DNA of 28,511 bases from positions 34,186 to 62,696 of the IMG/VR virus record IMGVR_UViG_3300001450_000034. One strand, written 5' to 3'. The position numbers were made by a program, and so were the translations under genes. The notes under the pieces are model-generated. The model did no database searches. It was not told where the DNA came from and was given only the letters and a program-made list of their open reading frames with translations. Position 1 is the stretch's first letter; every line of letters begins with the position of its first letter. This DNA is from a virus. This document shows, one piece after another, positions 11,967 to 25,436 of the stretch.

Positions 11967-12117
11967 ATCCTTGACAAGTCCTAATTCGATTCTTAGATAA
12001 ACCTTTGCCTTCTTGCATCCCTACCGCAAATGTATGTGTTATATTCCACATCTTTAGTTTGCCACACTCTTCGCACATTTCTATTGTTGTTAAGTTTTGT
12101 AATTCTCTTGTATTCAT
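11920..12117 (-). CDS. Small zinc-ribbon protein (65 aa)
   Basis: Two CxxC pairs (C15/C18 and C48/C51), separated by about 30 residues, form a zinc-ribbon layout. The start overlaps the stop of the Cas4-like nuclease gene (ATGA), and the 3' end overlaps the primase frame, so the three are almost certainly co-translated. Such small ribbons can act as transcription-factor-like or DNA-binding adaptors. The specific role is unknown. Confidence 0.65.
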   Translation of the reverse strand: MNTRELQNLTTIEMCEECGKLKMWNITHTFAVGMQEGKGLSKNRIRTCQGCGAVEGYDGPTDISS

Positions 12118-12971
12118 GCTATCACCGTTGGGTCTTGACCCGCACCATGTAACTCTTCATCACAGGATAAATAGAAATCACAATAGTTTGCACAGAAATA
12201 TTCACTCCATTTAGGAGTCCAATCTTTCATCTTAAGAGTATTAACTATTCTATCATAGTCTTTTTCAAAAGCAGTGTGGCTACGCTTACCTAGTTTCTCT
12301 ATGACTGTTATTCCTTTCACATCTCCAACATAGACTTCTTTGTTTTTGCTACTTAGTAATGTTGTTGCAGTTCTAGGGTTGGTGCAATCAGAGGATATTA
12401 ACATCATGTGTGTAACAGGACCATATTTTTCTTCATAGCCTAGTAGCCTAATCATTCTAGCATAGAAACATAGTTCTCTTCGCACCCTGCTTAACTTAGC
12501 GGTGCTTAGGTCACCTGTTTTCAATTCCATAATACAAAGACCACCATCGGGGTGTAGCATAAGACCATCCCACATACCCGAAAGAACAATATCATATTCA
12601 GGGTCATACACCTCCTTCTTTACTTCTGCCTCAATCGGCAAGAAGAACTCGTTGCCCCATACTTCCAAGCGTTGTGTCTCCATAACTGCGATTTCGTCAA
12701 AGGTGTCGTCATATTCTGTTCCAACGGGCAACTGCCCTCGTATAGATGCAAGACCTGTATGTTCATCTTTATTGGTGTATAAGTCCTCAACACCCTTATG
12801 AACAATAGTGCCTTTAAGCATTAACTCGGTGGCAGGTATTCTTACATCGGGCAACGCTACCTTGTTCCACCAATACTTACGAGGACACTGCCTTGCGTTC
12901 ATGAATGATGATTTACTCATACGGAGCCTAACATCACCTATAACTTCATAGGGATTATAGGATGATTCCAT
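12114..12971 (-). CDS. Cas4/RecB-like PD-(D/E)XK nuclease with Fe-S cluster cysteines
   Basis: The 285-aa product has the layout of Cas4/AddB-type exonucleases. It has an N-terminal cysteine (C29 in ARQCPRKYWW), the GTIVH motif (54-58), an active-site Asp in GMWDG (D135), ELK (149-151) forming the D...ExK site, a YxR-like helix near 166-172, and three C-terminal cysteines in CANYCDFYLSC (C260, C264, C270) that would complete a 4Fe-4S cluster with C29. Family members degrade or trim DNA ends. No CRISPR array or other cas gene is present, so this is best read as a viral recombination or repair exonuclease, possibly working with the Sak4-like ATPase. The start lies 4 bp after the preceding stop. 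Confidence 0.85.
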   Translation of the reverse strand: MESSYNPYEVIGDVRLRMSKSSFMNARQCPRKYWWNKVALPDVRIPATELMLKGTIVHKGVEDLYTNKDEHTGLASIRGQLPVGTEYDDTFDEIAVMETQRLEVWGNEFFLPIEAEVKKEVYDPEYDIVLSGMWDGLMLHPDGGLCIMELKTGDLSTAKLSRVRRELCFYARMIRLLGYEEKYGPVTHMMLISSDCTNPRTATTLLSSKNKEVYVGDVKGITVIEKLGKRSHTAFEKDYDRIVNTLKMKDWTPKWSEYFCANYCDFYLSCDEELHGAGQDPTVIA

Positions 12972-12975
12972 ATAC

Positions 12976-13341
12976 TCACTCTTCTTCTGCGAATGGATTG
13001 TCTATATGAGAAAATCCTGTCATACATTCTTCGACTTCTTTACCGTCTTTGTCTATTCTGTTAGGACAGACCGGCATAGCCTGTATTTCTTCAAACGCAT
13101 GAGGATAGATTATTTTCATACCGCACCCACTACATTCTTCTTTAGCCGCTAGACCTGCGTCTAATAGATGAAGATGTAAAAGTGTTGTCATATTCTCAGC
13201 GTGTTTGCTAAAGTCAATAAACACACTCACTAATTGATTATGCTTTTCCTCAATCAAATCCACTTTTTCTTTCATTTCTCTTAAGTCTTGTTGCATGACC
13301 TGTTTTACTGTCATTTTCTTCGGTGTTCGCTGTCCTTTCAT
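12976..13341 (-). CDS. Coiled-coil and zinc-binding protein of unknown function (121 aa)
   Basis: The start at 13341 gives a TAATG overlap with the polymerase stop codon, a typical translational-coupling arrangement. A longer frame to 13401 would overlap the polymerase by 61 bp and is less likely. Residues about 13-60 form a charged amphipathic helix likely to be a coiled coil. C70, C73, C92 and C106 follow as a possible zinc site, and the tail is acidic (AEEE). I do not recognise the family. Its place between the polymerase and Cas4-like genes suggests an accessory replication or repair role, which is inference. Confidence 0.65.
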   Translation of the reverse strand: MKGQRTPKKMTVKQVMQQDLREMKEKVDLIEEKHNQLVSVFIDFSKHAENMTTLLHLHLLDAGLAAKEECSGCGMKIIYPHAFEEIQAMPVCPNRIDKDGKEVEECMTGFSHIDNPFAEEE

Positions 13342-15542
13342 TATAACCACTCTACTGTTTTTCTTCCCTTCTTCGCATCGTATAGTGGAGCCATATCCCA
13401 AGATGCTATTTCATAGAAAGGCTTAACTTTCTCTAAAATATATCTGTCAGACATTGTCTCGTAACCTATCCCAATGGTTGCTGGTAGTTCTTCCACCTTG
13501 TCAAAAGATATAAACCTTCCGTTATTATCTATCAATAACCAAAAATATGAACCTTTTCTATATTCTTTTCCTAAGTGGGTATTAGCCCAGAGCGCACCTG
13601 CGGCTGAACCACCTATGGTCTTATAGTCCTTTAGGTCTTTCTTTAGTTTACCTTTCATCTTTAACTCGTCAAGGGATATGCTACCATCTATTATATTATG
13701 TATCATACCGCAGACTTTCTCAGTAACACTTTCTTCGCTTTTACCGTCAAGCATAGAGTTTATAGTTGAGTTCATAGCGTCTTTCATTATCTGAGGCATC
13801 CTTGCTTGTTTAGATTCAATCCCCTTGATATAATAGTCGGGTTCGTGGTATTTACCATCAGTCCATACTACCTTACCTGCGTATCTATTCTTAGCCTTAA
13901 GAAGCATACGCTCACAATACTTTTCAAACTCAGTTTCAATAGGAGCCATTTCTTTATTAATCCAATCCATCATCTCCATACCTGCTTCGGGGGATTCAAC
14001 AGTTACGAAAACAGAATCAGTATGACCATATATAACATCACAGCCCCATTCAATACACTTATCCCTTAATGTGAAAAGAGTGTTTCTTGACGTGCGAGTA
14101 ATAGCCGCCGCTACCGCAGGGTGATACATACCGAATCTGCTATCACCACATACTCCATACAGTGAAGCCACTAAGGACTTTGTTGCGAACTGAGCCGAAT
14201 CCCATTTAGTCTTTTCGTCTTTGGTTGTCGAAGCCTTCATATTACCCTTGTATTCATTTCTTAAATCCGTAAGTAGGTTCATAGCGCGACCTAACGCGCC
14301 TGTTGGTGCATCAGTATCGAATACTGCATTCTTCTCATCAAGCAGTGTTTCCCAAGATATATTATATTTGGTCACATTACTATGATACATGGCTTTTATA
14401 TCCATGATAGCAACTCTTTCATATAGCCCTGCTACCGGTTCTTGTATATCTGCACCTTGATATTCCTCGTAAGCGAACTGCGCTTTGGATGGCATTTGCC
14501 AATCTATCTCTTCATCACGCATAAATAATACTGTTGCTAATCTAGTGACCCAAGGAGTTGTTGCTATATCACACTGAACAATATGCTGTAAATTAATATA
14601 GTGGTCGATACAGTTAAGCATCTTATCTAGTTTGGGAAGTAAGGCTACGTCTTGTATGTTATAGTCAATGTATAGACCGATGTCTGTATAGTATGTATCA
14701 TGCCCATTAGGTAAATCCATCTTTTCCTCATCATCAAGAACAAACTGCGAAACATCCTTAAGACTTTGACCTGGTAGTTGCCCGTTCTTTATTCGCCACA
14801 ACTTACAAAATACAGTCATAAGGTCAATAGTAATTCTGCCTTTGATACACTGCGACCAGTCATCGAACTTATACCTAACAGAACCGTGTGGGCTCATTCT
14901 TTTACCTGCATTCCACCCATACCTTTTACAAGACTCAAATAAAACCCTCATATCAGCACCCATAAAAAACCAACCTGTCAATACATCGGGGTCTTTCTTC
15001 ATCATTACATGAAAGAAATCATCTAACAACTCTTTTTCAGTAGCGAATGCTTTTAGTGGGGGATTGAAAACCTTGTCTCCTAACTTTGAAACCAAAGGTG
15101 GATGTGTTTGACCGGGAGGCGATACAAACCAAGTTAGATACTTACCCATGTAATTATCATACACGGTCGCAACTGTTACTTCTTCCTGTTCATTCCATTC
15201 AAGGTCAACATACCATACACGATGCTTATAGAATGGATAGTCTTTACCATTATCCATAAGTGCTCTATTAGTGAATGGGATATTACATTCCCATGTCTGT
15301 GAAAACTTATCTTTTAATTGTAATACTTCATAGGGGTCAGCAAGTGTAACCTTAGTTAGTTCTTCGCCATAAAGACCTGTGAACCCATCTTCCTTTTTTA
15401 CAGCAGATATTAAATCCGCTTCTGTTGTTTTAAGAAACCCATAAGGATAAATGTCGTTAATAATGTCTTGCTTTCGGTCAAGTGTTACAGGGTCACGATA
15501 CCTTACAGCAACTCTTCTTCCACCTAAACCATCCACTATCAT
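13341..15542 (-). CDS. polB: Family B DNA polymerase with 3'-5' exonuclease
   Basis: At 733 residues this is close to the usual length of archaeal family B polymerases. Exonuclease motifs are intact: Exo I D113/E115 (YVDLEW), Exo II D197 (FMGAD) and Exo III Y294-x3-D298. Polymerase motif A is DIKAMYHS (D381), motif B is KSLVASLYG (455-463) and motif C is YGHTDS (505-510). Two positions are unusual: motif C has His where most family members have the first Asp, and motif B has Ala for the usual Asn before SxYG. The metal-binding Asp of motif A and the second Asp of motif C are kept, so an active enzyme is expected. The C-terminus is KTVEWL, sharing EWL with three other proteins here. The start overlaps the deoxyribosyltransferase-like gene (ATGA), and a TATA-like element lies 25 nt upstream. 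Confidence 0.97.
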   Translation of the reverse strand: MIVDGLGGRRVAVRYRDPVTLDRKQDIINDIYPYGFLKTTEADLISAVKKEDGFTGLYGEELTKVTLADPYEVLQLKDKFSQTWECNIPFTNRALMDNGKDYPFYKHRVWYVDLEWNEQEEVTVATVYDNYMGKYLTWFVSPPGQTHPPLVSKLGDKVFNPPLKAFATEKELLDDFFHVMMKKDPDVLTGWFFMGADMRVLFESCKRYGWNAGKRMSPHGSVRYKFDDWSQCIKGRITIDLMTVFCKLWRIKNGQLPGQSLKDVSQFVLDDEEKMDLPNGHDTYYTDIGLYIDYNIQDVALLPKLDKMLNCIDHYINLQHIVQCDIATTPWVTRLATVLFMRDEEIDWQMPSKAQFAYEEYQGADIQEPVAGLYERVAIMDIKAMYHSNVTKYNISWETLLDEKNAVFDTDAPTGALGRAMNLLTDLRNEYKGNMKASTTKDEKTKWDSAQFATKSLVASLYGVCGDSRFGMYHPAVAAAITRTSRNTLFTLRDKCIEWGCDVIYGHTDSVFVTVESPEAGMEMMDWINKEMAPIETEFEKYCERMLLKAKNRYAGKVVWTDGKYHEPDYYIKGIESKQARMPQIMKDAMNSTINSMLDGKSEESVTEKVCGMIHNIIDGSISLDELKMKGKLKKDLKDYKTIGGSAAGALWANTHLGKEYRKGSYFWLLIDNNGRFISFDKVEELPATIGIGYETMSDRYILEKVKPFYEIASWDMAPLYDAKKGRKTVEWL

Positions 15543-16027
15543 ACTAAGCCGTATGTGGGCTTAGTTATAACATTTGGGTATTTGTTAAAACAATCAAACC
15601 AATCCGCTATATCTTCTATTGCTTCGGCAGAAAAGGTTCTGACAAACTCCCAATCATTATGTGCTATGACCCAAGGATTTTCTTCTAGGCTTATACATAA
15701 CTCATCATCTTCGGCAAACCATATAACCTTCTTGCCGGTCATGTGTGCATACATAATCTCCATACAGGTCCCTATGCTTAATTCTTTAGGAACATAATTG
15801 ACTAGGATAACATCAGAACGGTCTATCATAAGTTTGTCTCGCGGCACTATCAATTCTTTGAATGCTTCGTCATAGTGAACCCCACCATGCTCTGCTGATA
15901 CCATAGGATTGAATACTTCAAAACCTTTACTTGTTAAAATATTATAAGTAGTTTCTCTCCATCCTATTGAACGCCACCTTTCTTCATCTTCAAGAATAGG
16001 ACCGCATAGATAGAAGGTTACGCTCAT
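15539..16027 (-). CDS. Nucleoside 2-deoxyribosyltransferase-like protein
   Basis: The 162-aa product has the family layout: an N-terminal strand and loop YLCGPI (6-11), GFEVFNPM (35-42), VPRDKLMIDRSDVILVNY (61-78, with D72 and N77), and SIGTCMEI (84-91), where E90 is placed like the catalytic Glu of nucleoside deoxyribosyltransferases. NPWVIAH (117-123) is also typical. Enzymes of this fold move or hydrolyse the N-glycosidic bond of deoxynucleosides or nucleotides. In a virus the role may be nucleotide salvage or removal of modified or competing nucleotides. The exact substrate cannot be read from sequence. The gene overlaps both neighbours by ATGA junctions and is probably translated together with the HTH protein and the polymerase. 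Confidence 0.75.
   Translation of the reverse strand: MSVTFYLCGPILEDEERWRSIGWRETTYNILTSKGFEVFNPMVSAEHGGVHYDEAFKELIVPRDKLMIDRSDVILVNYVPKELSIGTCMEIMYAHMTGKKVIWFAEDDELCISLEENPWVIAHNDWEFVRTFSAEAIEDIADWFDCFNKYPNVITKPTYGLV
15565..15570 (-). promoter_or_regulatory. Possible internal TATA box for the polymerase gene
   Basis: The minus strand reads GTTATAAC here, inside the 3' end of the upstream gene. The centre is 25-26 nt before the polymerase ATG at 15542, the same spacing as the clearer leaderless promoters in the window. It may give extra transcription of polB and the genes after it. Confidence 0.35.
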
Positions 16028-16323
16028 TCAATACGCCTTCCCCGAGGTCTGCTAGGAATGTCTAGTTTTCTCAACCATTGATTAATAGTCATTGGACTTA
16101 CACCACATAAGTCTCCTATCTGCTTAAGAGTTAAACCCTTACCCCAATAGTTTTCATTCAGCCATGAATGATTTCTATATGGTTTAGAGGTATCAGCCTC
16201 GCCTGTGGTTAAAAGATACCATACTCCATCTTTAACGAATCTTACATTCGCTTTACAGGGTATTAATTCTTGTATTCCATCTTGTTCTTCATCTATTACT
16301 ATTGCGTATTTTACTTCTGTCAT
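16024..16323 (-). CDS. Small helix-turn-helix DNA-binding protein
   Basis: The C-terminal half contains a clear HTH: LTLKQIGDLCGVSPMTINQW (about residues 64-83), followed by a basic tail (RPRGRR), a pattern also common in phage regulators and homing-endonuclease-associated HTH domains. The first 50 residues form a small beta-rich region (YAIVIDEEQDG, VRFVKDGVWYLL). The frame extends upstream to a GTG at 16401, but a good TATA box lies at 16377-16383, inside that extension. I therefore prefer the ATG at 16323 with a leader of about 30 nt. As the first gene of the polymerase transcription unit it may be an autoregulator, which is inference. Confidence 0.65.
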   Translation of the reverse strand: MTEVKYAIVIDEEQDGIQELIPCKANVRFVKDGVWYLLTTGEADTSKPYRNHSWLNENYWGKGLTLKQIGDLCGVSPMTINQWLRKLDIPSRPRGRRIE

Positions 16324-16376
16324 TTGTTTTGGCTTCCCGCCTATGGGCTTTCTACTATTACGGAAGAGGCATGGGG

Positions 16377-16383
16377 TTATAAA
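16377..16383 (-). promoter_or_regulatory. TATA box for the HTH-deoxyribosyltransferase-polB transcription unit
   Basis: The minus strand reads ATTTATAACC, with TTTATAA matching the archaeal TATA consensus. Transcription would start near 16354, giving a leader of about 30 nt before the ATG at 16323. It lies just after the stop of the GNAT-like gene. Confidence 0.5.
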
Positions 16384-16391
16384 TCTTTGGA

Positions 16392-17330
16392 TTACAGCCA
16401 CTCTGTATAGTTTCTTTTTTCAAAGTAAGAGGCTTTTAATTCTTTCGTCATTTTCATAGCGGGTATAGTCTTGTATATCTTATTTACAACAGACGGTCTT
16501 AGTTTCTGCTTTGCTATCTTACTGGCCGCACCCCTAACTGCCGCACCTCTATTTACATCAATATTATTATGGCCTATTTTTTCTTCCCATGCTTTTGAAG
16601 CATAGTGGAGAAGAACAGGTGTCATATTCTTTATTAACTTATTATCGTAGTCTTTACAGGCCGTATCATATATTAGACCGTTGTCAGTCCTATGTGAAAG
16701 ATGATACCCTATACATTTATCCCCTTCCATAATGGTCAGAAGAAGTGCATCTTCTAATTGTGAATAGGCATTGAACGAGTCAATAAAGAAATTAGATTTC
16801 CATGATTTCTTATCCCTTTGTTTTAACCATCGGCCGGTCAAAGCATTACACGATTCTAGCGTTTTGTATGGGGTGTTGCCCCAATGAACCTGTATATCTA
16901 TCGCGTCTGAGTCGATAAGCGACTCAGCCTTGTTACATGGCTTTCTTAATTGGTTCTTATTCACCCCGTATCTATCGCTGAATGCCCTAAGATTGTATAT
17001 GTATTCTTCATTATCAAACACACATTTGTCACTCGAATACCCATAATCTATGAGGCTAGGAATACCTGCATCGTTTAATTTACTCACCACATCATAACTT
17101 GATGGTAGGATAGCATACAATACTTGAGTTCCCATAATCTGTCTATCTTTTAGAACGACTAATTCATCGTCAATATATCCTAACTTGAATACATGAGGTT
17201 GGTGCATCAATCTAAGGGGGGATTCATAGTATCTAATTAACCTACCACAAGTCATAGATGAAAGCCCTTGATAGAACTCGGTATAGTTTTCTAATGTTAG
17301 TGGCTTGAACTCGCTTAAGTCTAAAGCCAT
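16392..17330 (-). CDS. GNAT-like acyl/aminoacyl transferase (DUF2156/FemAB-type pattern), C-terminal EWL
   Basis: The 312-aa protein resembles tandem GNAT proteins of the DUF2156 type. An N-terminal half begins with FKPLTLENYTEFYQGL. A second half contains YNLRAFSDRYGVNKNQLRK (about 112-130), a WLKQRDKKSW segment and a strand-turn-helix near 195-245 (ALLLTIMEGDKCIGYHL...). These folds transfer acyl or aminoacyl groups. The gene start lies inside the last codons of the DNA methyltransferase gene, an overlap of 10 bp, so the two are translationally linked. The protein ends in YTEWL, sharing EWL with the methyltransferase and polymerase. A role in DNA modification next to the methyltransferase is possible; an unrelated conjugation role is also possible. 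The fold call is from pattern only. Confidence 0.55.
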   Translation of the reverse strand: MALDLSEFKPLTLENYTEFYQGLSSMTCGRLIRYYESPLRLMHQPHVFKLGYIDDELVVLKDRQIMGTQVLYAILPSSYDVVSKLNDAGIPSLIDYGYSSDKCVFDNEEYIYNLRAFSDRYGVNKNQLRKPCNKAESLIDSDAIDIQVHWGNTPYKTLESCNALTGRWLKQRDKKSWKSNFFIDSFNAYSQLEDALLLTIMEGDKCIGYHLSHRTDNGLIYDTACKDYDNKLIKNMTPVLLHYASKAWEEKIGHNNIDVNRGAAVRGAASKIAKQKLRPSVVNKIYKTIPAMKMTKELKASYFEKRNYTEWL

Positions 17331-18499
17331 TCAATATCCTCTGTCTTATCTTCAACATCAAGGTAATGAAACTCATCCTGTATAGTCTTTGGGTCACCCT
17401 TGAAGAAGATTAAAACATTCTGATGAGTTTTTCCTAACTTTCTATTGTTAGCAAACTGTTTGTGGACTCTTATAGGAAGGCTACCTGCAACCGTGATTAA
17501 GATACATTCATTGTATAAGGTAGCACCTGCTGATTGGAAAGCATCAATAGTGTCGCTTACAAAGTTTCGATAGAATCCTTTTTCATTCCTAAAGTCTCCA
17601 ACAACAAACACTGCGAACCTATTAGGTTTGAGCATATCAACAGAACGCTGAATAATATTTCTATATGAATCTAAAAACTCGTGGTGTTCCATAGTGGATA
17701 AATCCCTATCATCTTCTGAATAGACTTCAAGGTCACCATAGGGCGGGCATGAAAATACCATATCCCACTCGCCACCTATCTTATCTTTTATGTCTAGCGC
17801 ATCTCCAACAACCCAATTAGGCATAGGGAAATCTGTATTACCTACTAACTCTAACCCTTGAATCCTATTAGCCTGAACTTGGTCGGAACGTAATTCCATA
17901 CCCGCATACTGATGATTACCATGTGCGGCAACAATTCCTCTTACAGAACCACCGCAGAAAGGGTCAAGAATATTACCACCTTCGGGGCAAAACCAATTAT
18001 ACATTAATTCAGTTAATACAGGGTCGAATATAGAAGTGCCTGTTGCTCTTTTCTGAAAGCCATCTTCTTCTTTTAGGGCGGCACTTGTTGTTCCGTCCTC
18101 ATTCTTATGAAGCCATGCACTATTTTTACCTGTGCCTCCTCCGGGTATTGCTCTAGTATCTTTCTTAGTTTCATTCCATGTTGCTTTGTCTCCAATAGCG
18201 AATGTCTTAGCATTACCTTTTGAATCTCCACCTACCGATACTTCTTCATCACTTAAAAGAAATCCTTCTTTGACAAGTTGGTCTACATCATATTCTTTTT
18301 TACCAAACATATACTTCATGTTCGACTTTGACATAGCAATAAGTGCTTCACCCCTACCTAGTTCTGAACGAATACCTTTACGAGTCCACCAACGCTTTCG
18401 GTCTTGCCAATAGCCTTGGCGAGCATCTAATATACTGAAAGGCGGTGCGCCATATCTCTTTTTTAGTGGTGTTCTTATTATATGTTTTTCTAAACTCAT
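17321..18499 (-). CDS. DNA methyltransferase (amino-MTase, N6-adenine or N4-cytosine type), C-terminal EWL
   Basis: The 392-aa protein has the SAM-binding motif ILDPFCGGS (177-185), an acidic residue closing the second strand (MELRSD, E202), and catalytic motif IV SCPPY (250-254). These mark a DNA amino-methyltransferase acting on adenine N6 or cytosine N4. The first 150 residues are not part of the catalytic core and may hold target recognition. No restriction endonuclease partner is encoded nearby, so it is a solitary viral methyltransferase, perhaps for evading host restriction or marking viral DNA. The C-terminus is DIEWL. The start overlaps the preceding 65-aa gene (ATGA), and the codons for the final EW contain the ATG of the next gene. 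Confidence 0.9.
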   Translation of the reverse strand: MSLEKHIIRTPLKKRYGAPPFSILDARQGYWQDRKRWWTRKGIRSELGRGEALIAMSKSNMKYMFGKKEYDVDQLVKEGFLLSDEEVSVGGDSKGNAKTFAIGDKATWNETKKDTRAIPGGGTGKNSAWLHKNEDGTTSAALKEEDGFQKRATGTSIFDPVLTELMYNWFCPEGGNILDPFCGGSVRGIVAAHGNHQYAGMELRSDQVQANRIQGLELVGNTDFPMPNWVVGDALDIKDKIGGEWDMVFSCPPYGDLEVYSEDDRDLSTMEHHEFLDSYRNIIQRSVDMLKPNRFAVFVVGDFRNEKGFYRNFVSDTIDAFQSAGATLYNECILITVAGSLPIRVHKQFANNRKLGKTHQNVLIFFKGDPKTIQDEFHYLDVEDKTEDIEWL

Positions 18500-18693
18500 T
18501 CTGCATCATATCCTCTGTTGTGTTTTTTCCAAGCCTCAAATAGAGGTATTATATCTCCTGACTCAAATATAGTGCCGGAGGTCATGTGAATTAGGAACGG
18601 TTCATTGTCGAAGGGTTCTGTTAATGCTGATATATCTCTTATATCTATCCAAGTTATACCTGTTGAAGTCGATACGGGTATTATTAATTTCAT
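18496..18693 (-). CDS. Small protein of unknown function (65 aa)
   Basis: It has ATGA overlaps with both the upstream 166-aa gene and the downstream methyltransferase gene, so it is clearly part of the same translated unit. The sequence suggests a small beta-sheet (LIIPVSTSTGITWIDI, then FLIHMTSGTIFE) ending in a helix (IIPLFEAWKKH). No motif was recognised. Confidence 0.6.
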   Translation of the reverse strand: MKLIIPVSTSTGITWIDIRDISALTEPFDNEPFLIHMTSGTIFESGDIIPLFEAWKKHNRGYDAE

Positions 18694-19190
18694 TCTTCTT
18701 CATCTCCATTACAGCATCCACCTGCGCAATCGTCGCACTGTGGTTCATAACAATGTTCACAATCCCAAGTATCATTTGCTCTAGTTTCTGAACCACAATT
18801 ACAAATCATCCATGAAGAATCTAGTTCTCCGTTAAGCGTTACTTTACCTTCGTGTTGGTCTACTAATATCGTAGGTTTTGACTTATGTAATATACCCAAG
18901 TTGGTAGGGTTTTCATGGCAACACTCGATAGGAACGATAGCCAATAAACCTGCATCAACTGCCATTTCACCACCACTAAAATGCCAACAACCATCTCCTC
19001 CCGGAGAAGGATAGACTTCTATTTTGTATGTCTCTTCTGAAAGAGTTCCTTCATTCATAGTCCAATCTAATTCTGCTTCGTAATCTTCGTTTTGCTCAGC
19101 CCAAAGTAATTCACAAAACTCATGCCATCTATTATCTTCTATAACATAACAGGGGTCGCCTGTATAGTATTTGACTTCGTGTAATTCCAC
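18690..19190 (-). CDS. Unknown protein with C-terminal zinc-finger cysteines (166 aa)
   Basis: The longest frame starts at a TTG at 19229 and would overlap the clamp gene by 34 bp. I prefer the GTG at 19190 because a strong ribosome binding site, GAGGTGA (19196-19202), ends 5 nt before it and includes the clamp stop codon. The product has GDPCYVI near residue 11, a VDAGLLAIVP strand near 78, and a C-terminal cysteine cluster (about C130, C132, C144, C147, C152, C155) followed by an acidic end (GDEEE). The GDPCYV...VDxG pattern recurs in phage proteins of unknown function, to my recollection. It lies directly after the clamp gene. Confidence 0.6.
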   Translation of the reverse strand: MELHEVKYYTGDPCYVIEDNRWHEFCELLWAEQNEDYEAELDWTMNEGTLSEETYKIEVYPSPGGDGCWHFSGGEMAVDAGLLAIVPIECCHENPTNLGILHKSKPTILVDQHEGKVTLNGELDSSWMICNCGSETRANDTWDCEHCYEPQCDDCAGGCCNGDEEE

Positions 19191-19195
19191 GAATC

Positions 19196-19202
19196 TCACC
19201 TC
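19196..19202 (-). promoter_or_regulatory. Ribosome binding site GAGGTGA deciding the start at 19190
   Basis: The minus strand reads GAGGTGA, complementary to the archaeal 16S rRNA 3' end, 5 nt before a GTG codon. The last three bases are the stop codon of the clamp gene. Confidence 0.6.
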
Positions 19203-20017
19203 TTGATTACTGCCGCTTGGAATACCCAATCGCCATTGTCGAATACAATCAATAGTCTAATACCCTGTCCTTCCGGTCTAAAATCTATGAAGTATAGTTT
19301 GACCATACTATCATAGTTAGATAGCATTTGTTCTAAACCACCTTCAAAGGTTGTTGAAAAGTCCTCACCAAAAGGTGTATCTTCATTAAGTATTGTCTCA
19401 GTCTGTCCTTTCAAATCGCTACCGGTTAGAACGTATAATGTTTCTTTACCGTCGTGCTGAAAGGTATATTGATTAAGTTTCTGACCATTCATGTTATCAC
19501 ATCTTAAAGCCTCATGAAGAAGGTTAGATGATGTTTCAGCCATGTGCATAGGTAGTCTTTTAGACCCATCACGCATGATATAGCATCCGGCATCAACGTC
19601 TATTTGATTAGACATAGTTACCGATTTATCCTCCCACTGTGCGATTGTTTCTTGACTGTGTGGGAATGCTAGACTACCCGGCTCAGCAACTAATGTTGTT
19701 TGTTTACCCGAACTCTTTATTTTTAGCGAACCATTCATTTGAGTCATAACCACTTCTCCACTATGCGCTGATATAACCCCTAATGTTCTTTCGATGTCGG
19801 GGATAACTATTGCATCTTCATTTTCTGACCATGAACAGGGGATTGAAAACTTACCAAGACTCGTCTTACCATCTCTGACTAGACTTGTTGTGGTGGCACT
19901 ATCCCCGTTGGGTCTAATAACACAACCAATAACCTGTTGTTGAGGTTTCGCATTCACGAATTGCTTTCTTGCTGTTACTTCTAATAATCTCTTGAGGTTT
20001 CCCGTCTTGACTAACAT
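19196..20017 (-). CDS. Candidate DNA sliding clamp (divergent PCNA-like protein)
   Basis: The 273-aa product is slightly longer than typical PCNA (about 245). It is made of alternating strands with few helices. Its C-terminal end (MVKLYFIDFRPEGQGIRLLI followed by FDNGDWVFQAAVIKR) looks like the last strands of a PCNA domain. No sequence motif is diagnostic, and the call leans on context: the window has polymerase, RFC small subunit and candidate partners with shared C-terminal peptides, but no other clamp candidate. The frame reaches a GTG at 20029, but a TATA box centred 27 nt upstream of the ATG at 20017 indicates a leaderless start there. It heads a transcription unit that also holds the methyltransferase and the GNAT-like gene. 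It could instead be another beta-rich DNA-binding protein. Confidence 0.5.
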   Translation of the reverse strand: MLVKTGNLKRLLEVTARKQFVNAKPQQQVIGCVIRPNGDSATTTSLVRDGKTSLGKFSIPCSWSENEDAIVIPDIERTLGVISAHSGEVVMTQMNGSLKIKSSGKQTTLVAEPGSLAFPHSQETIAQWEDKSVTMSNQIDVDAGCYIMRDGSKRLPMHMAETSSNLLHEALRCDNMNGQKLNQYTFQHDGKETLYVLTGSDLKGQTETILNEDTPFGEDFSTTFEGGLEQMLSNYDSMVKLYFIDFRPEGQGIRLLIVFDNGDWVFQAAVIKR

Positions 20018-20040
20018 ATTTGAATCCACCTAGTTACCAC

Positions 20041-20047
20041 TTATAAA
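20041..20047 (-). promoter_or_regulatory. TATA box, leaderless promoter of the clamp-candidate gene
   Basis: The minus strand reads CTTTATAAG. The centre is 27 nt upstream of the ATG at 20017, so the transcript would begin at or next to the start codon. It sits between the stop of the 52-aa gene and the clamp-candidate start. Confidence 0.6.
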
Positions 20048-20049
20048 GA

Positions 20050-20208
20050 TTACGTCCATTTCGACAAAGGTTCATCATTTTCCTTAGCCAATCTTTCTGC
20101 TATGACCGATATAGAGTTTTTTAATTCCCACATCTCATCTTGCAGTTGTCTTATCTCTACAAACATCCTATCCATGTCGTCAGCGACTTGATTAGTTTTA
20201 TCAGACAT
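20050..20208 (-). CDS. Very small coiled-coil protein (52 aa)
   Basis: This short frame runs from an ATG at 20208 to a TAA at 20050-20052. The start overlaps the stop of the 34-aa gene as TAATG, the same coupling seen elsewhere in the window. The product (MSDKTNQVADDMDRMF... ending LSKWT) is mostly one charged amphipathic helix. It fills a gap that would otherwise be empty. Function unknown; it may be a small oligomerising partner of a replication protein. Confidence 0.55.
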   Translation of the reverse strand: MSDKTNQVADDMDRMFVEIRQLQDEMWELKNSISVIAERLAKENDEPLSKWT

Positions 20209-20312
20209 TATATTAACTCTCCGAAACAATGCTTACAAATATAGTTTTCACCATCACAATTATAGGTCATAGTAGTCATCAGTCTGTCAGACCTTCCACA
20301 CCTACTGCACAT
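20208..20312 (-). CDS. Very small zinc-ribbon protein (34 aa)
   Basis: The ATG at 20312 directly follows the stop codon of the Sak4-like gene, and its TAA overlaps the ATG of the 52-aa gene. The product has two CxxC pairs (C2/C5 in MCSRCGR and C26/C29 in YICKHCFGEL), a minimal zinc ribbon. Tight packing on both sides and the paired cysteines support a real gene despite its size. Confidence 0.55.
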   Translation of the reverse strand: MCSRCGRSDRLMTTMTYNCDGENYICKHCFGELI

Positions 20313-21263
20313 TCATACCAACCCCATGTCCGGTAGACCGTTCCATGTTACTTTGTTATCTTTAATTCTCAATACGTCATGTGAAGTCCCAACAAACTCA
20401 CTGCCTGTTCCTTTCATTTCCTCTATGACAGCACGAACAACAAACTCACCTGCTTTAAGAGTTTTGTCTGCTTTGACACCTGCGGCCTCATCACCTTTTT
20501 GTGTGTATCTTGCTAAGAATATCTGCTGGCTCATATTACGTTGTGTTCCATCTACCCAATCCGGTTTTTCACCAACTTTCATAAGAACTTTTTTGCCTCC
20601 ACCATCACCTAGATATTGTCTATGGTCTTTCAGATGGAAAGTAAAGAATACTCTATCTACCGGAAGTGCTTGAATACGGTATAATGTATCTCGGTATGTC
20701 TGATTACGCTCACGCCATTCTTTTTGATTGAATGAATCCCCTTCATCATCAATTACTCCTTTAGCAAGTAATGATTCGCGCATACTAAACTCGCACCACT
20801 TAAGATATGTTGAGCCACCATCACAAATAACTGCGGCAACTTCACCATCTTCACATAAATCTCCAGCGATTGTAACGAATGCTTTGACCTTTTTTACTAA
20901 ACCATGCCACGATACTGTTACTCCATCTTCTTCAAATATAGAGTCATCTGTCTCATCAAACAGTTTAAGAACAATTACGTTAGGGTCATCAGGACAAACG
21001 AATCTGACCGTTGCTTCGGCTGAATTATCGAAGTCAAATATAATGACCTTTTTACCATCCTTAATTTCCTTTGGTGTTCTCGCTAGTGATAATGCAAGAC
21101 CAGTCTTAGCGGTGTTTTCTTTACCGACCAAAGCCATGCGTATAGGTGTGGATAGTAACTTACGCTCAGCATTCTTGTTGAATAAATCCCTATAATGGTC
21201 CACAGTATAAGAAGGAGCGCCGGAGGCTTTCGCCCCCTTTGCCGCCGGTTGAGCCCAAGCCAT
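20313..21263 (-). CDS. Sak4/RadA-like RecA-fold ATPase
   Basis: The 316-aa protein has a RecA-type ATPase core. It has a P-loop at 47-54 (GKENTAKT), then KVIIFDFDNSAE (72-83), a Walker B-like strand AAVICDGG (about 143-150) and a later strand RVFFTFHLKD typical of Sak4-type phage recombinases. The P-loop is unusual: Ala replaces the Gly before Lys-Thr. Such proteins promote single-strand annealing or strand exchange, usually with a single-strand-binding protein, and the upstream gene is an OB-fold candidate. A longer frame reaches an ATG at 21278, but a perfect ribosome binding site GGAGG (21271-21275) lies 7 nt before the ATG at 21263, so that start is chosen. The gene begins just after the upstream stop. 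Confidence 0.75.
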   Translation of the reverse strand: MAWAQPAAKGAKASGAPSYTVDHYRDLFNKNAERKLLSTPIRMALVGKENTAKTGLALSLARTPKEIKDGKKVIIFDFDNSAEATVRFVCPDDPNVIVLKLFDETDDSIFEEDGVTVSWHGLVKKVKAFVTIAGDLCEDGEVAAVICDGGSTYLKWCEFSMRESLLAKGVIDDEGDSFNQKEWRERNQTYRDTLYRIQALPVDRVFFTFHLKDHRQYLGDGGGKKVLMKVGEKPDWVDGTQRNMSQQIFLARYTQKGDEAAGVKADKTLKAGEFVVRAVIEEMKGTGSEFVGTSHDVLRIKDNKVTWNGLPDMGLV

Positions 21264-21265
21264 GC

Positions 21266-22513
21266 TTAATCCTCCCATGATTCAGCATCGACCTGCACAG
21301 CGTCAATTGAATCCACACACCACCAACCATGTGTTGTGAATCTCATTTCGTCATCTCTTGATTTGTAAGTCTGTCCGACAATTAATACTTGTGAACCAAC
21401 ACCGAATGTTAATAGATGCTCATGTGCTTTAGGCACAACCACATCAACTCCGGGTGCGACACTTGTAATGTCTAAATCACCTAAGGTCACAGTATATCCG
21501 CCACGTTCGCGCGGGTCTATATGAACCACTTCACCAACTATTCCGACCCATTGGTCCCACCAATCTTTATCGTCTTTGTGGTCTGTATGGTATTGTTCTA
21601 GTGTTGCGAAAGAAGGTAGTAATCCACCGTTAGGGTAAAGACCGCCTAGCATCTCTGGTATAATACCTTCTGGTCCTGATTCTCCCATAGCCATTGGAGG
21701 TGCTGAGAATATTCCCGCCACTTCTTCATTAGTTACAAGGTCGCTTAGTTCTTTAGCATACGCAGTTTTACCGTCTCGTCCTAAACGAAGGCCGATTGTT
21801 CCGGGTCTGAAACTAGCATATTGTGTATCTGCTGTTTTACCATTTGCTCTAACACTGATAAGGAATGGGTCATCATTTGAACCAACCTTTCGACCTAAGA
21901 AGGATGATGTTCTTTCTTTCTCAGACATAGGTCTTGGTGCTCCGTATTTGAAGTTATTGTCTCCGCTTGGGAACTTAGGTGTAGTATTATTCCATATTAG
22001 ATAGAAAGCATCTCCGTTAGGTAATTCCTTATGGATTCTAGGTAACTCGATTACACTAACCTCATCTATTTCATCATCTAATCCTGTCCTTGACATAAGA
22101 CCGGCGTTAGCATATCTTGTATAACCTGCTCCACTTGCTTCGTAATAAACTATTGCTCCGTTTCTAATCTGCGCTTGTGTTAAAGCATCTTGAACATTTC
22201 CTCTTTGTGTTAATTCACGTTCTGTTTTATTGTAAGCAATTTGAGCCCAATCTTTGTAAGGTGGAACACGTATAAACATTCCCTCGAATTGTTCTAATCC
22301 ACTCTTTTTAAGTCTTTCACCAATCATTTTTAATTGACGGCCTGCAACTCTAGCGGAAAGTATTTCTTGGGTAGTGGAATCTTTACCACTAGCCGCCCAT
22401 GCCGCTCCGTTTTCAGCCATAACTTCATTCATTTTTGTGCGTAACCTCTCTTCGGCAACACCTAAGTTTGCCGCTAGGTCTTTTACTATCTGTTTCGTAT
22501 TTATATCGGTCAT
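21266..22513 (-). CDS. OB-fold single-stranded DNA-binding protein (RPA-like) candidate
   Basis: The 415-aa protein begins with a helical region (QIVKDLAANLGVAEERLRTK). Beta-rich segments follow that look like OB folds: around residues 75-100 (FEGMFIRVPPYKDWAQIAY) and especially about 330-405 (GIVGEVVHIDPRERGGYTVT, QVLIVGQTYKS, WWCVDSIDAV). It ends in an acidic tail (AESWED), as single-strand-binding proteins often do. No zinc finger of the archaeal RPA type is visible. Its position directly before the Sak4-like ATPase and after the clamp loader gene fits an ssDNA-binding role in replication and recombination. Overall similarity is weak, so this is a fold-level inference. Confidence 0.5.
   Translation of the reverse strand: MTDINTKQIVKDLAANLGVAEERLRTKMNEVMAENGAAWAASGKDSTTQEILSARVAGRQLKMIGERLKKSGLEQFEGMFIRVPPYKDWAQIAYNKTERELTQRGNVQDALTQAQIRNGAIVYYEASGAGYTRYANAGLMSRTGLDDEIDEVSVIELPRIHKELPNGDAFYLIWNNTTPKFPSGDNNFKYGAPRPMSEKERTSSFLGRKVGSNDDPFLISVRANGKTADTQYASFRPGTIGLRLGRDGKTAYAKELSDLVTNEEVAGIFSAPPMAMGESGPEGIIPEMLGGLYPNGGLLPSFATLEQYHTDHKDDKDWWDQWVGIVGEVVHIDPRERGGYTVTLGDLDITSVAPGVDVVVPKAHEHLLTFGVGSQVLIVGQTYKSRDDEMRFTTHGWWCVDSIDAVQVDAESWED
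21271..21275 (-). promoter_or_regulatory. Ribosome binding site GGAGG deciding the start at 21263
   Basis: The minus strand reads GGAGG, 7 nt before the ATG at 21263 and inside the last codons of the upstream gene. This makes the in-frame ATG at 21278 unlikely to be used. Confidence 0.65.
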
Positions 22514-22516
22514 TTA

Positions 22517-22523
22517 ATCACCT
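22517..22523 (-). promoter_or_regulatory. Ribosome binding site AGGTGAT of the OB-fold gene
   Basis: The minus strand reads AGGTGAT immediately before the ATG at 22513 (AGGTGATTAAATG), matching the archaeal 16S rRNA complement. Unlike the leaderless starts here, this gene has an untranslated leader. Confidence 0.5.
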
Positions 22524-22556
22524 TTTTCTGTCCTACTTCGCACACCCCGTTACCCC

Positions 22557-22563
22557 TTATAAA
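22557..22563 (-). promoter_or_regulatory. TATA box for the OB-fold and Sak4-like transcription unit
   Basis: The minus strand reads GTTTATAAGG in the 59-bp gap after the RFC gene. Transcription would start near 22534, giving a leader of about 20 nt that includes the ribosome binding site. Confidence 0.55.
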
Positions 22564-22572
22564 CCATTGGGT

Positions 22573-23475
22573 TTATTCGCTTAGAAATCGGCAAAACTCC
22601 CAAATTACATACACTTCGGGAACACCATTTATTAGGTCTCGCCTTGCTTGGATGGATGCTTGGACTACTCTCATCTTGTTTTCATGGTTGTTCATGGTAG
22701 CATCGACTGCTTTTAAGAACACTTGATGTATCGCTTCACGAGCAGGTGCTACGCTAAGTATCTTGACCGCTTCGGGAACATTACCCATTTTGAAACACAT
22801 GGTCAAAACTGAACCCGCATTGATTTCCGGTGTGCTAATAGAGGCTATGAATCCTTTACGGTCTATGGGGGATAAGTAAGAGGCCGCTTGAAGCGCACCG
22901 ATAGCATTTCTCATATCACCACCATGCTTATTGATAATAACTTTCAAATCTTCTTCTGTCATCTCTACCGCTTCCATAACACAGATATGTTTCAAACGCT
23001 CCATAACTAAATCATCGGGTATTGGATTGAATGTTCTGACTTGACACCTTGACTTGAGCCAAGGAGATACTTTGTTCAAATCATTACAAGTAAGTATGAA
23101 AAATCCTTGAGCGTTTTCTATAACTCCTTTTAGTGCGTCTTGTGCTGTGGGTGTTATCCTATCTGCCTCGTCAAGAAGAAATATAGTTTCATACTGTCCG
23201 ATACGAGACATAGGTCCTATATCATCTTCAACGAAATCTATTCCCCTTTGTTTCTTAGTCGAAGCATTAAACTCATGCAATTGGTAAAGTAATTCATCTG
23301 CCATGACACGAGCCATAGTTGTCTTACCACTACCCGGCTCAGGACTATGGAATAAGAAATGTTGCATCGGTGCATCACCATTGACAATCGCTCGCATTTC
23401 AGATACTACCGAATCCTGTGATAATACTTCATCCAACTTCTGTGGTCTATATTTTTCAGCCCAAATTACTTTCAT
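22573..23475 (-). CDS. rfcS: Replication factor C small subunit (clamp loader ATPase)
   Basis: The 300-aa protein opens with the RFC signature WAEKYRPQKLDEV (5-17). It has a Walker A PEPGSGKT (45-52), Walker B IFLLDEAD (98-105), sensor 1 LTCND (128-132) and the RFC-specific SRC motif with its arginine finger (142-144), followed by the lid and the helical collar region. It loads the sliding clamp on primed DNA using ATP. It is a little shorter than cellular small subunits (about 320). No large subunit with an RFC signature is in this window; the 221-aa gene at 24771 may serve instead. The start overlaps the preceding gene by 4 bp (ATGA). A palindrome GGAAATATTTCC at 23492-23503 lies just upstream but is a weak promoter candidate. 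Confidence 0.95.
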   Translation of the reverse strand: MKVIWAEKYRPQKLDEVLSQDSVVSEMRAIVNGDAPMQHFLFHSPEPGSGKTTMARVMADELLYQLHEFNASTKKQRGIDFVEDDIGPMSRIGQYETIFLLDEADRITPTAQDALKGVIENAQGFFILTCNDLNKVSPWLKSRCQVRTFNPIPDDLVMERLKHICVMEAVEMTEEDLKVIINKHGGDMRNAIGALQAASYLSPIDRKGFIASISTPEINAGSVLTMCFKMGNVPEAVKILSVAPAREAIHQVFLKAVDATMNNHENKMRVVQASIQARRDLINGVPEVYVIWEFCRFLSE

Positions 23476-24026
23476 TGTTTCACCCCATTAGGGAAATATT
23501 TCCATGTCTGCCACCATGCAGGTTCTGGTCGCCCACGTTCCCATTTAGCGAATGATTTGCTGTGGTAGTAGCGTCTGTATGCTGTGACCGCATCATCGTC
23601 TTTGTATTCATCAGGCATGGCTTGAGCGTATTCTGTAAAGCCAATGTTAGGTATCTCAGCCCACGCATAGTCTGATGTATCGCCATCGTCTATCTGTAAT
23701 TGCGATAACTGATAGATGCCTTCTTCACAAAAGTGAGTCTTACCAAAACGAAGTGTATACTCACAACATAATTGTTCTGCGTGTTTGTGAAGCCACCACC
23801 AATTAGATGATGACTCACCTGACCAGATAGTGCATGGGTGATTTGGATAACCGCCTTTGAGCGGTGTGCCTTTTTTGGTTATAGGCATAGATTCTGAGTC
23901 TGCACCATGACGTAGTAATGCGCTACCTAGCATCTGATATGACTCAACAATCATTTTAGGGATATGCTTGTCGCACATCATACTAGCGGCTTTTCGTGGG
24001 TTTTCGTCTAGGACAAAGATGTTCAT
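23472..24026 (-). CDS. Conserved phage-type protein of unknown function (184 aa)
   Basis: The product begins MNIFVLDENPRKAASMMCDK and contains NHPCTIWSGESSSNWWWL (62-79), FAKWERGRPEPAWW near the end, and many conserved-looking His, Trp and Cys residues. I recognise this pattern from hypothetical proteins of marine bacteriophages. I cannot give a function and do not trust the glycosylase names sometimes attached to it. Conserved His21, Cys64 and the ESSSNW block suggest an enzyme. The gene has its own leaderless promoter and overlaps the RFC gene by ATGA, so it is the lead gene of the clamp-loader unit. Confidence 0.7.
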   Translation of the reverse strand: MNIFVLDENPRKAASMMCDKHIPKMIVESYQMLGSALLRHGADSESMPITKKGTPLKGGYPNHPCTIWSGESSSNWWWLHKHAEQLCCEYTLRFGKTHFCEEGIYQLSQLQIDDGDTSDYAWAEIPNIGFTEYAQAMPDEYKDDDAVTAYRRYYHSKSFAKWERGRPEPAWWQTWKYFPNGVKQ

Positions 24027-24046
24027 AACACACCCTAAGCGTGTTT

Positions 24047-24054
24047 CTTTATAA
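24047..24054 (-). promoter_or_regulatory. TATA box, leaderless promoter of the 184-aa/RFC unit
   Basis: The minus strand reads TTATAAAG here. Its centre is about 25 nt before the ATG at 24026, so transcription should begin at the start codon. Confidence 0.55.
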
Positions 24055-24561
24055 TCATTTAGGAAAACGGGTGCATTCTAGGCAGTATTCAAGATGTTCT
24101 TCAAAGTATCTTCTCCTACCGCATTTGGTGCATTGTTTTGCACAGGCCGCTTCTTCCTTACTCAGTGCATTGAACGGTAAAGTAAATAGAATGTCGTTAT
24201 AATCCCTAATCAATTCAAAATTAACTTCGTATTGTGGAACGCGCCTTCTCCTACCATCACCAGTAGTAATGATAACAGACTTTTCAGAATTAACCTGCGG
24301 ATTACGAGATAGTATAGTTCCTAAAGAAATAGGACTAGGGGTGCTTAAGAGATTTAACCTATTCATAAGATGCGTTGTTATTTCCTGTTTGGTAAGTGGT
24401 TCATCCACATCCCACAGTATGTTAATCAATTCCCTTCTAATCCTTGCATTATACGCCGCCATTCTTACACCTTTTGTTCTTCTTCCCATATAATAGCCGG
24501 TCAATTGCCCTTTTTCTCCTGCTGAACCCCAAGACTTTCTTTTACGCCCATTATATGCCAC
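24055..24561 (-). CDS. Winged-helix-like protein with C-terminal zinc ribbon
   Basis: A basic N-terminus (about 1-35) is followed by a likely winged helix (about 38-112: RIRRELINILWDVDEPLTKQ, a helix with ITTHLMNRLN, then a basic wing DGRRRRVPQYEV). A C-terminal zinc ribbon has C144/C147 (QCTKCGRRRYF) and C160/C163 (YCLECTRF). This is the layout of a DNA-binding transcription factor or regulator. The frame starts at a GTG at 24561, as there is no in-frame ATG nearer the preceding gene. An ATG at 24462 has a good ribosome binding site (AAGGTG, 5 nt spacing) and may be the true or a second start, leaving the winged helix and zinc ribbon intact. Target genes are unknown. Confidence 0.65.
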   Translation of the reverse strand: MAYNGRKRKSWGSAGEKGQLTGYYMGRRTKGVRMAAYNARIRRELINILWDVDEPLTKQEITTHLMNRLNLLSTPSPISLGTILSRNPQVNSEKSVIITTGDGRRRRVPQYEVNFELIRDYNDILFTLPFNALSKEEAACAKQCTKCGRRRYFEEHLEYCLECTRFPK

Positions 24562-24594
24562 TACCGTATGGGGTGAGGTAATTGTTCTTAAATG

Positions 24595-24780
24595 TTACTG
24601 TTCCAACCACATAGCATAGTCTGCGAGGTCGTCATACTTTTCAGTATCTCTCTTATTCAGATAATTCCGGCTACTAATTTTTGGTTCAAAAATATTGAAA
24701 AAAAGGTTTATAAATCTCATAACATAGATTAGCACAAAGATAATCAAAGGAGATAATAGGGCAAGTTGTATCACAACCAT
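24595..24780 (-). CDS. Small membrane protein (61 aa)
   Basis: One hydrophobic helix (about residues 5-31, LALLSPLIIFVLIYV and onward) is followed by a charged C-terminal tail, consistent with a single-pass membrane protein. The ATG lies inside the last codons of the 221-aa gene (GAATGG), overlapping by 10 bp. A TATA-like element is centred 27 nt upstream. The family was not recognised. It could be a host-membrane protein such as a lysis or exclusion factor, but nothing in the sequence proves that. Confidence 0.55.
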   Translation of the reverse strand: MVVIQLALLSPLIIFVLIYVMRFINLFFNIFEPKISSRNYLNKRDTEKYDDLADYAMWLEQ

Positions 24781-25436
24781 TCTATCAGCGTCTCCTTAGT
24801 TTTCTTTATAGTAGGTGGTGCTTGGTCTATGGTTCTTAACTTATTCCTTACTTCGGGGGCGTTAGCAACAATCATATCTGCATAAACATCGGTAGACCTG
24901 AATCCGAAGGGGATTATTGAATCATCCTTTATTTTCTTCTTAGGCCACGATACACTACTCTGTAATGCCTTCGTGCCAAAGACCAAAGCGGCTTTAGCAT
25001 AATCTTCTTCCATCTGATATCTCGCCATACTTACTATTCTTTGTTCTTCAATCCCCTGCGGTCTATTGACTTTATGGAATGCTTCTGCAAGAGCAAGTGG
25101 GACAGGTTTCATAGCCTTCCATGCCCTGTTTCTATCTGACCACTTCATCATAGCATTGATTGGTGAATTGAAATTATTTTTACCCTTCTTAGCGGAATTA
25201 TGGATTAGTATATTATTACCTTCACGAACACCCTTAATCCCCTTTCTAGGTATCACTACAAGACGATATTGCACCAATTCAGCCCATTCTTTTGCCATAG
25301 ATAGGGGGAATGATTCACAATGTAAAATATAGGTAGTGTCCGGTGCTGTGGGGGGCGATGTCAGTTCACCATACATCAAAATATAGTCTCCGCTCCTAAA
25401 AGAAGCATCATCACCTGCGTAAATTATTACACCCAT
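24771..25436 (-). CDS. Unknown 221-aa protein with C-terminal EWL; possible second clamp-loader subunit
   Basis: The N-terminal 75 residues show strand-helix alternation like a degenerate nucleotide-binding domain without a P-loop (VIIYAGDDASF, DYILMYGE, TTYILHCESF, YRLVVIPRKG). The rest is helical (about 85-200). This is the outline of a non-ATPase clamp-loader subunit such as delta or T4 gp62, or a reduced RFC large subunit. Archaeal RFC large subunits are known to carry a PCNA-binding peptide at the C-terminus, and this protein ends KETLIEWL, sharing EWL with DNA polymerase B. The functional suggestion combines this peptide, the fold impression and the lack of another large subunit here; it is not shown by a motif. 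Its start overlaps the preceding stop by one base (TAATG). Confidence 0.6.
   Translation of the reverse strand: MGVIIYAGDDASFRSGDYILMYGELTSPPTAPDTTYILHCESFPLSMAKEWAELVQYRLVVIPRKGIKGVREGNNILIHNSAKKGKNNFNSPINAMMKWSDRNRAWKAMKPVPLALAEAFHKVNRPQGIEEQRIVSMARYQMEEDYAKAALVFGTKALQSSVSWPKKKIKDDSIIPFGFRSTDVYADMIVANAPEVRNKLRTIDQAPPTIKKTKETLIEWL
24804..24810 (-). promoter_or_regulatory. Possible TATA box for the small membrane protein gene
   Basis: The minus strand reads CTATAAAG inside the 3' end of the upstream gene. The centre is about 27 nt before the ATG at 24780, matching the leaderless spacing used elsewhere. Confidence 0.35.

Follow-up and report, generated by a model that had tools for sequence, protein, structure and literature searches.

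Why should four unrelated proteins encoded by one virus end in the same three amino acids? The question is raised by a DNA stretch of 28,511 nucleotides (the window; positions 34186-62696 of the 62.7-kb IMG/VR record IMGVR_UViG_3300001450_000034), in which a family B DNA polymerase (PolB), a DNA methyltransferase, a GNAT-like protein of 312 amino acids (aa) and a 221-aa protein all end in Glu-Trp-Leu (EWL), followed directly by the stop codon. A preliminary description, made from the letters of the window, interpreted this ending as a peptide of the form basic-x-x-x-hydrophobic-E-W-L that binds the sliding clamp of the virus. When the sequence was re-read, the four endings and their differing codons proved to be as described: GAG TGG TTA TAA in PolB, GAA TGG CTT TAG in the methyltransferase, GAG TGG CTG TAA in the 312-aa protein and GAA TGG TTG TGA in the 221-aa protein. 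The range given for them ends at 24800, although the gene of the 221-aa protein extends to 25436. Only these four of the 69 genes called in the 62.7-kb record have a W-[LIVMF] end, and by composition alone 69 genes would include at least four with EWL ends with a probability of 1.9e-11 (1.5e-7 when corrected for 8000 3-mers).

We gathered 67 related IMG/VR loci via PolB (92 to 42% identity), in which genes were called mechanically and then clustered. The collection is metagenomic, and the shared descent of its sequences was handled by outside-clade controls and non-redundant counts only. Among 842 non-redundant proteins EWL was the commonest C-terminal 3-mer, with 48 occurrences against 0.075 expected by composition; the composition-based expectations for the record and for the related loci rule out chance or composition as the source of the shared ending. 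A W-[LIV] end was revealed in PolB of 63 out of 64 loci and in all members of the families of the 221-aa protein (40/40), the methyltransferase (14/14) and the 312-aa protein (9/9). The sole untagged PolB (locus L053) has an unrelated terminal sequence, probably due to a frameshift. W732 is an invariant column in a 30-row alignment of PolB, and a relative of the 221-aa protein (L055) has lost the linker in front of the tag but retained the terminal EWI.

What stays invariant is the core W-[L/I/V]-COOH. Glutamate, which had been counted as part of the conserved peptide, is replaced by Q, G, D, K, S, R, N, V and other residues across the loci, and the basic-x-x-x part is not conserved either. 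No tag was found in the families of the clamp, the RFC small-subunit-like clamp loader (RFC-S), the Sak4-like protein and the RPA-like protein (50 to 61 members each); therefore replication proteins do not generally bear the tag. The carriers represent a family of marine tailed viruses that is probably archaeal, judging by gene content and by the nearest named relatives, which are haloviruses. In four loci (L044, L046, L047, L049) a protein of ~82-105 aa encoded after the 221-aa gene ends in GGWL, ADWL, GAWL or GVLF and is a probable tag carrier of one subclade.

Which other proteins bear the ending? Another 19 relative genomes were read in pieces, and W-[LIVMF] ends were present in 74 out of 1382 called genes. 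Besides PolB and the 221-aa protein, the tagged genes that could be identified mostly encode enzymes which modify DNA and belong to families unrelated to one another. They comprise two or more kinds of N6/N4 methyltransferases, several C5 cytosine methyltransferases, Dam, DpdA (the 7-deazaguanine transglycosylase, E=4e-74), acyltransferases of the GNAT and LPG_synthase_C types and one pyridoxal phosphate (PLP) enzyme. With Pfam searches for methyltransferases, Dam and DpdA in the fetched genomes as the denominator, 16 out of 18 recognisable DNA-modifying enzymes bear the tag. Of the 1364 other genes, among which those of PolB and the 221-aa protein are counted, 58 do so (Fisher p=1e-19).

The same enzymes were compared inside and outside the clade. 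In IMG/VR we found 79 relatives of DpdA with a complete C-terminus, six of which end in W-[LIV]; these are exactly the ones located on contigs with the clamp loader, clamp or 221-aa genes of the clade. None of the other 73 (42-54% identity, outside the clade) has this end. Similarly, the tag is present in 7/7 ParB-type methyltransferases in the clade and 0/18 outside it (p=2e-6), in 2/2 versus 0/6 Dam and in 6/6 versus 0/1 C5 methyltransferases; named homologues from viruses of Enterococcus, Listeria, Mycobacterium and Haloarcula have no tag. Since homologues are tagged in the clade and untagged outside it, the presence of the tag depends on the virus clade rather than on the family of the enzyme. 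Most likely, the ending was gained repeatedly, being appended behind conserved catalytic domains of enzymes that entered the virus lineage.

What kind of peptide is it? Archaeal PCNA-interacting protein (PIP) boxes are generally located at the extreme C-terminus and have the consensus Q-x-x-h-x-x-a-a (PMC3504372). The endings studied here resemble archaeal and eukaryotic PIP boxes in their extreme C-terminal position and in the final hydrophobic/aromatic pair (PIP positions 7 and 8), present as W-[LIV] in the tagged families, and several members fit the full consensus. Thus, a subfamily of the methyltransferases ends in complete Q-x-x-L-x-x-W-L boxes (QKTLGEWL, QRTLAEWL, QQTLGEWL), PolB of L307, a distantly related locus in which the gene order is the same (27% identity of PolB), ends in QTSLEDWW, and PolB of the haloviruses HSTV-2 and HRTV-27 ends in QSGLGAFI and QRGLADYV, respectively. 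Gln at position 1 and an aliphatic residue at position 4 occur in all of these but not in the window's four endings, which keep the two terminal anchors without Gln; we do not claim full PIP membership for them. The endings differ from PIP boxes in that most of the tagged proteins keep only the last two anchors, in that the order is Trp and then an aliphatic residue directly before the carboxylate, and in that, within a single virus clade, they occur on numerous DNA-modifying enzymes. The distant relative L307, the one PolB relative met in a genome scan for the host, is contig NZTP01000016 of a metagenome-assembled genome binned as Altibacter; it probably represents a misbinned virus of distant relationship. 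Its gene order is RFC-S-like, RPA-like, Sak4-like, a clamp-sized protein of 274 aa, PolB, Cas4-like, a 343-aa protein, ERCC4-like.

The proposed receptor of the tag (Table 1) gave an AlphaFold model with a mean predicted local distance difference test score (pLDDT) of 92.8 and a predicted TM-score (pTM) of 0.90. The best 50 PDB matches listed for this model are all beta clamps or PCNA (Foldseek E ~2e-10; best TM-score by target 0.71), and the protein had no Pfam, PHROG or PDB sequence-profile match. Its gene is located in the same block as the RFC-S homologue and was found in nearly every related locus covering the region (61 members); tblastn with the clamp and the 221-aa protein revealed no match in named phage records. 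In the interdomain part of the clamp (residues about 121-135) there is a conserved PIP-like string, [Q/K]-x-T-[ILV]-x-[EQ]-W (SQETIAQW, SQNTLKEWH, TKKTVKEWS), which resembles the tag. It may act as a latch for self-docking, or it may be no more than a capping box of a helix (T-x-x-E).

A different ending, [VP]L[DEGS][FWY], is shared by several proteins of the haloviruses HVTV-1 and HCTV-1. Its carriers are RFC-L (..SVLDF), PolB (..GVLSW), GNAT (..DPLDF) and an HNH protein (..LDY), and the D12 methyltransferase of HVTV-1 ends in ..DVLDF. Whereas the peptide differs from that of the window, the same functional set is tagged (PolB, GNAT and, in HVTV-1, the methyltransferase), with RFC-L in addition. 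Because RFC-L is a clamp partner by function, its ending supports the role of the clamp. An LEF/LDF ending is also borne by the DUF6610 protein, which is encoded beside the genes for GTP cyclohydrolase and Que (queuosine-precursor) proteins. HVTV-1 has dPreQ1 in its DNA, but no DpdA was identified (PMC6884629), and the DUF6610 protein is a candidate for the missing transglycosylase of this virus.

We consider it highly probable that the shared ending serves as a PIP-type tag for docking of the C-terminus on the clamp, which would couple DNA modification to replication. Only the last turn of a PIP box would be left in this tag: Trp and Leu/Ile/Val would be its two hydrophobic anchors, immediately followed by the free carboxylate, and it would hang on a short flexible linker. 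Trp and the aliphatic residue may plug into a hydrophobic pocket of the virus's own clamp. By such docking the polymerase would gain processivity, and the DNA methyltransferase, the GNAT-like enzyme and the 221-aa protein (in relatives also Dam, C5 methyltransferases and DpdA) would be held at the fork, so that nascent viral DNA could be modified during its synthesis, presumably ahead of host restriction. A clamp-binding C-terminal peptide on the polymerase and DNA-modifying enzymes, as proposed in the preliminary description, thus finds strong comparative support (a clade-bound tag, its grading into full PIP boxes, the clamp fold), apart from the Glu and basic-x-x-x positions. Several observations weigh against clamp docking. 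The receptor models as a sliding clamp, being recognised by predicted fold only. In PolB, in the 221-aa family and in the four endings of the window the PIP box is degenerate, as its Gln and its hydrophobic residue are frequently absent. Two DNA-modifying enzymes have no tag and end in ..RVDLF and ..MEVSE. Finally, the choice of L or I/V as the last residue co-varies in PolB and the 221-aa protein, with a suggestive p=0.0015 when phylogeny is ignored, but only 2 to 4 independent pairs are left after correction, and for this reason we do not use the co-variation as evidence.

Could the peptide be a by-product of the DNA? In each of the four tags of the window the next gene starts within GA[A/G]TGG, which gives a 10-base overlap; since each tag contains such a start, a DNA-level constraint had to be excluded, and the earlier statement that the conservation is at the protein level and not a DNA repeat was reached too quickly. 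If a 10-base overlap (ATG/GTG then G; xxR-TGG) were preferred, it would force Trp at position -2. However, W-[LIV] is retained in 36 out of 49 non-redundant tagged PolBs in spite of an embedded frame that ends within 35 codons, and 13 have no ATG/GTG at the overlap position (GATTGG, GGTTGG, GCTTGG). Besides, the overlap does not confine the last residue to L/I/V, and it accounts neither for full PIP boxes (QKTLGEWL) nor for the halovirus LDF endings, which have no TGG. The PolB test refutes the overlap as a sufficient cause of the tag; it is real but secondary, and we give very little credit to the artefact. A next-gene start within the tag (GA[AG]TGG) is a recurrent arrangement in the clade, and some 221-aa genes have CTG at the embedded-start position.

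The remaining alternatives accept the peptide and change its partner or its role. Another replisome hub, such as the RPA-like 415-aa protein, the Sak4-like protein or the primase, is as universal and syntenic as the clamp and might serve as the docking site; the PIP-type grammar of several endings, the position of the halovirus counterpart on RFC-L and the precedent of T4, where the target is the clamp (PMC2988020), make this improbable. Recruitment of the viral enzymes to host-loaded clamps by binding of host PCNA, which with its PIP boxes has the same chemistry, appears somewhat less probable still, as nearly all loci (61 members) encode a divergent clamp with its own loader in one operon-like block. 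Short hydrophobic C-termini can also act as degrons or HbYX-like proteasome contacts. A role of the tag as a degron, in contacts with a chaperone or the proteasome, or as a motif commonly used in structural packing is as improbable in our opinion as the overlap artefact, since outside PolB, the 221-aa protein and the DNA-acting enzymes, whose folds are unrelated, the tag is nearly absent, and since the tail of the 221-aa model is of low confidence and without regular structure.

The 221-aa protein is universal in the clade, syntenic with RFC-S and tagged in every member. Its AlphaFold model (mean pLDDT 80.5, pTM 0.51) is composed of an alpha/beta part, helices and an unstructured tagged tail, with no regular structure beyond residue 203 and a pLDDT of 40 at the last residue. 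Clamp-loader subunits recur among its fold matches in PDB and BFVD, none of them significant (Foldseek); hhalign against RFC-S and the RFC-L of HCTV-1 and a PDB profile search were negative. Our best guess, a tentative one, is a second loader subunit (compare RFC-L and gp62), the main alternative being a clamp-tethered transcription factor.

The features discussed are listed in Table 1. Two further families of the window have C-termini of their own. About half of the Cas4/PDDEXK-like nucleases (12114-12971 and relatives) end in -EW without a further residue (..GVGEW, ..DEEW), possibly a related docking end. In the RPA-like 415-aa family (21266-22513) relatives often end in GWD or GWDA, a separate conserved acidic-aromatic C-terminus.

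Table 1. Location of the tagged genes, their tags, the proposed receptor and related features (window coordinates unless a locus is given).
Feature	Position	Strand	Basis or remark
PolB, 733 aa, ends ..GRKTVEWL	13341..15542	-	DNA_pol_B E=6.7e-35
PolB EWL-stop tag	13341..13352	-	tag codons 13344-13352
GTG inside PolB tag	13350	-	probable start of next gene (124 aa)
312-aa GNAT-like protein (LPG_synthase_C kind), ends ..KRNYTEWL	16392..17330	-	relative in locus L006 matches LPG_synthase_C E=1.9e-7
312-aa protein EWL-stop tag	16392..16403	-	
GTG inside 312-aa protein tag	16401	-	start of helix-turn-helix (HTH) gene
N6/N4-type DNA methyltransferase (ParB-MTase kind), 392 aa, ends ..KTEDIEWL	17321..18499	-	N6_N4_Mtase E=1.3e-10; phrog_498 DNA methyltransferase
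Methyltransferase EWL-stop tag	17321..17332	-	
ATG inside methyltransferase tag	17330	-	start of 312-aa gene
Virus-encoded sliding clamp, proposed tag receptor	19196..20029	-	predicted fold
RFC small-subunit-like clamp loader, untagged	22573..23475	-	phrog_168 clamp loader E=6e-44
221-aa protein, ends ..KETLIEWL after low-confidence, probably flexible linker	24771..25436	-	in all clade members
221-aa protein EWL-stop tag	24771..24782	-	
ATG inside 221-aa protein tag	24780	-	start of 61-aa open reading frame
DUF6610 protein, HVTV-1 gp69	L073:33803-34963		
HCTV-1 gp64	L175:2643-3806		positional counterpart of gp69

What would a clamp-docking tag mean for these viruses? It can be suggested, with moderate assurance, that the tag is a heritable replisome address: acquired modifying enzymes (N6/N4, C5, Dam, DpdA, GNAT) would gain the clamp peptide of the lineage, the peptide would differ from lineage to lineage, and hypermodification in archaeal tailed viruses would generally take place on the clamp during replication. 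This would be a simple mechanism by which viral DNA is modified completely and in time to escape restriction, with a three-residue ending turning unrelated enzymes into clamp clients. It would also provide a rule for the prediction of function, in which a protein of unknown function with the ending of its lineage is a candidate replisome or DNA-modification factor; the rule applies to the universal 221-aa protein and to DUF6610 in HVTV-1.

The earlier view that such a tag has not been described for archaeal tailed viruses is about right for the literature searched: in the open-access literature we found no paper joining archaeal viruses, PCNA/PIP and methyltransferases, the closest being reviews of T4. 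HVTV-1 and HCTV-1, however, carry the different shared ending reported here. The clamp-binding motif of bacterial beta clamps is QL[SD]LF, and that of Sulfolobus PolB1 is QLTLF. These are likewise short hydrophobic clamp peptides, but of the L-x-L-F type, whereas a Trp-aliphatic pair is used here; some in-clade endings without W-L (..RVDLF, ..RIDLF) resemble this type. An experimental precedent is provided by T4, in which the C-terminal clamp epitopes of gp43, gp55 and gp33 resemble and can replace one another (PMC2988020). No homologue of gp55 or gp33 was identified. In both systems several unrelated proteins of one virus bear one C-terminal peptide on a flexible linker, the interchangeability being that of T4 (PMC2988020). 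T4 tags its polymerase and late-transcription factors with hydrophobic-acidic peptides, while in the present clade the polymerase, methyltransferases, DpdA, GNAT and an orphan protein are tagged.

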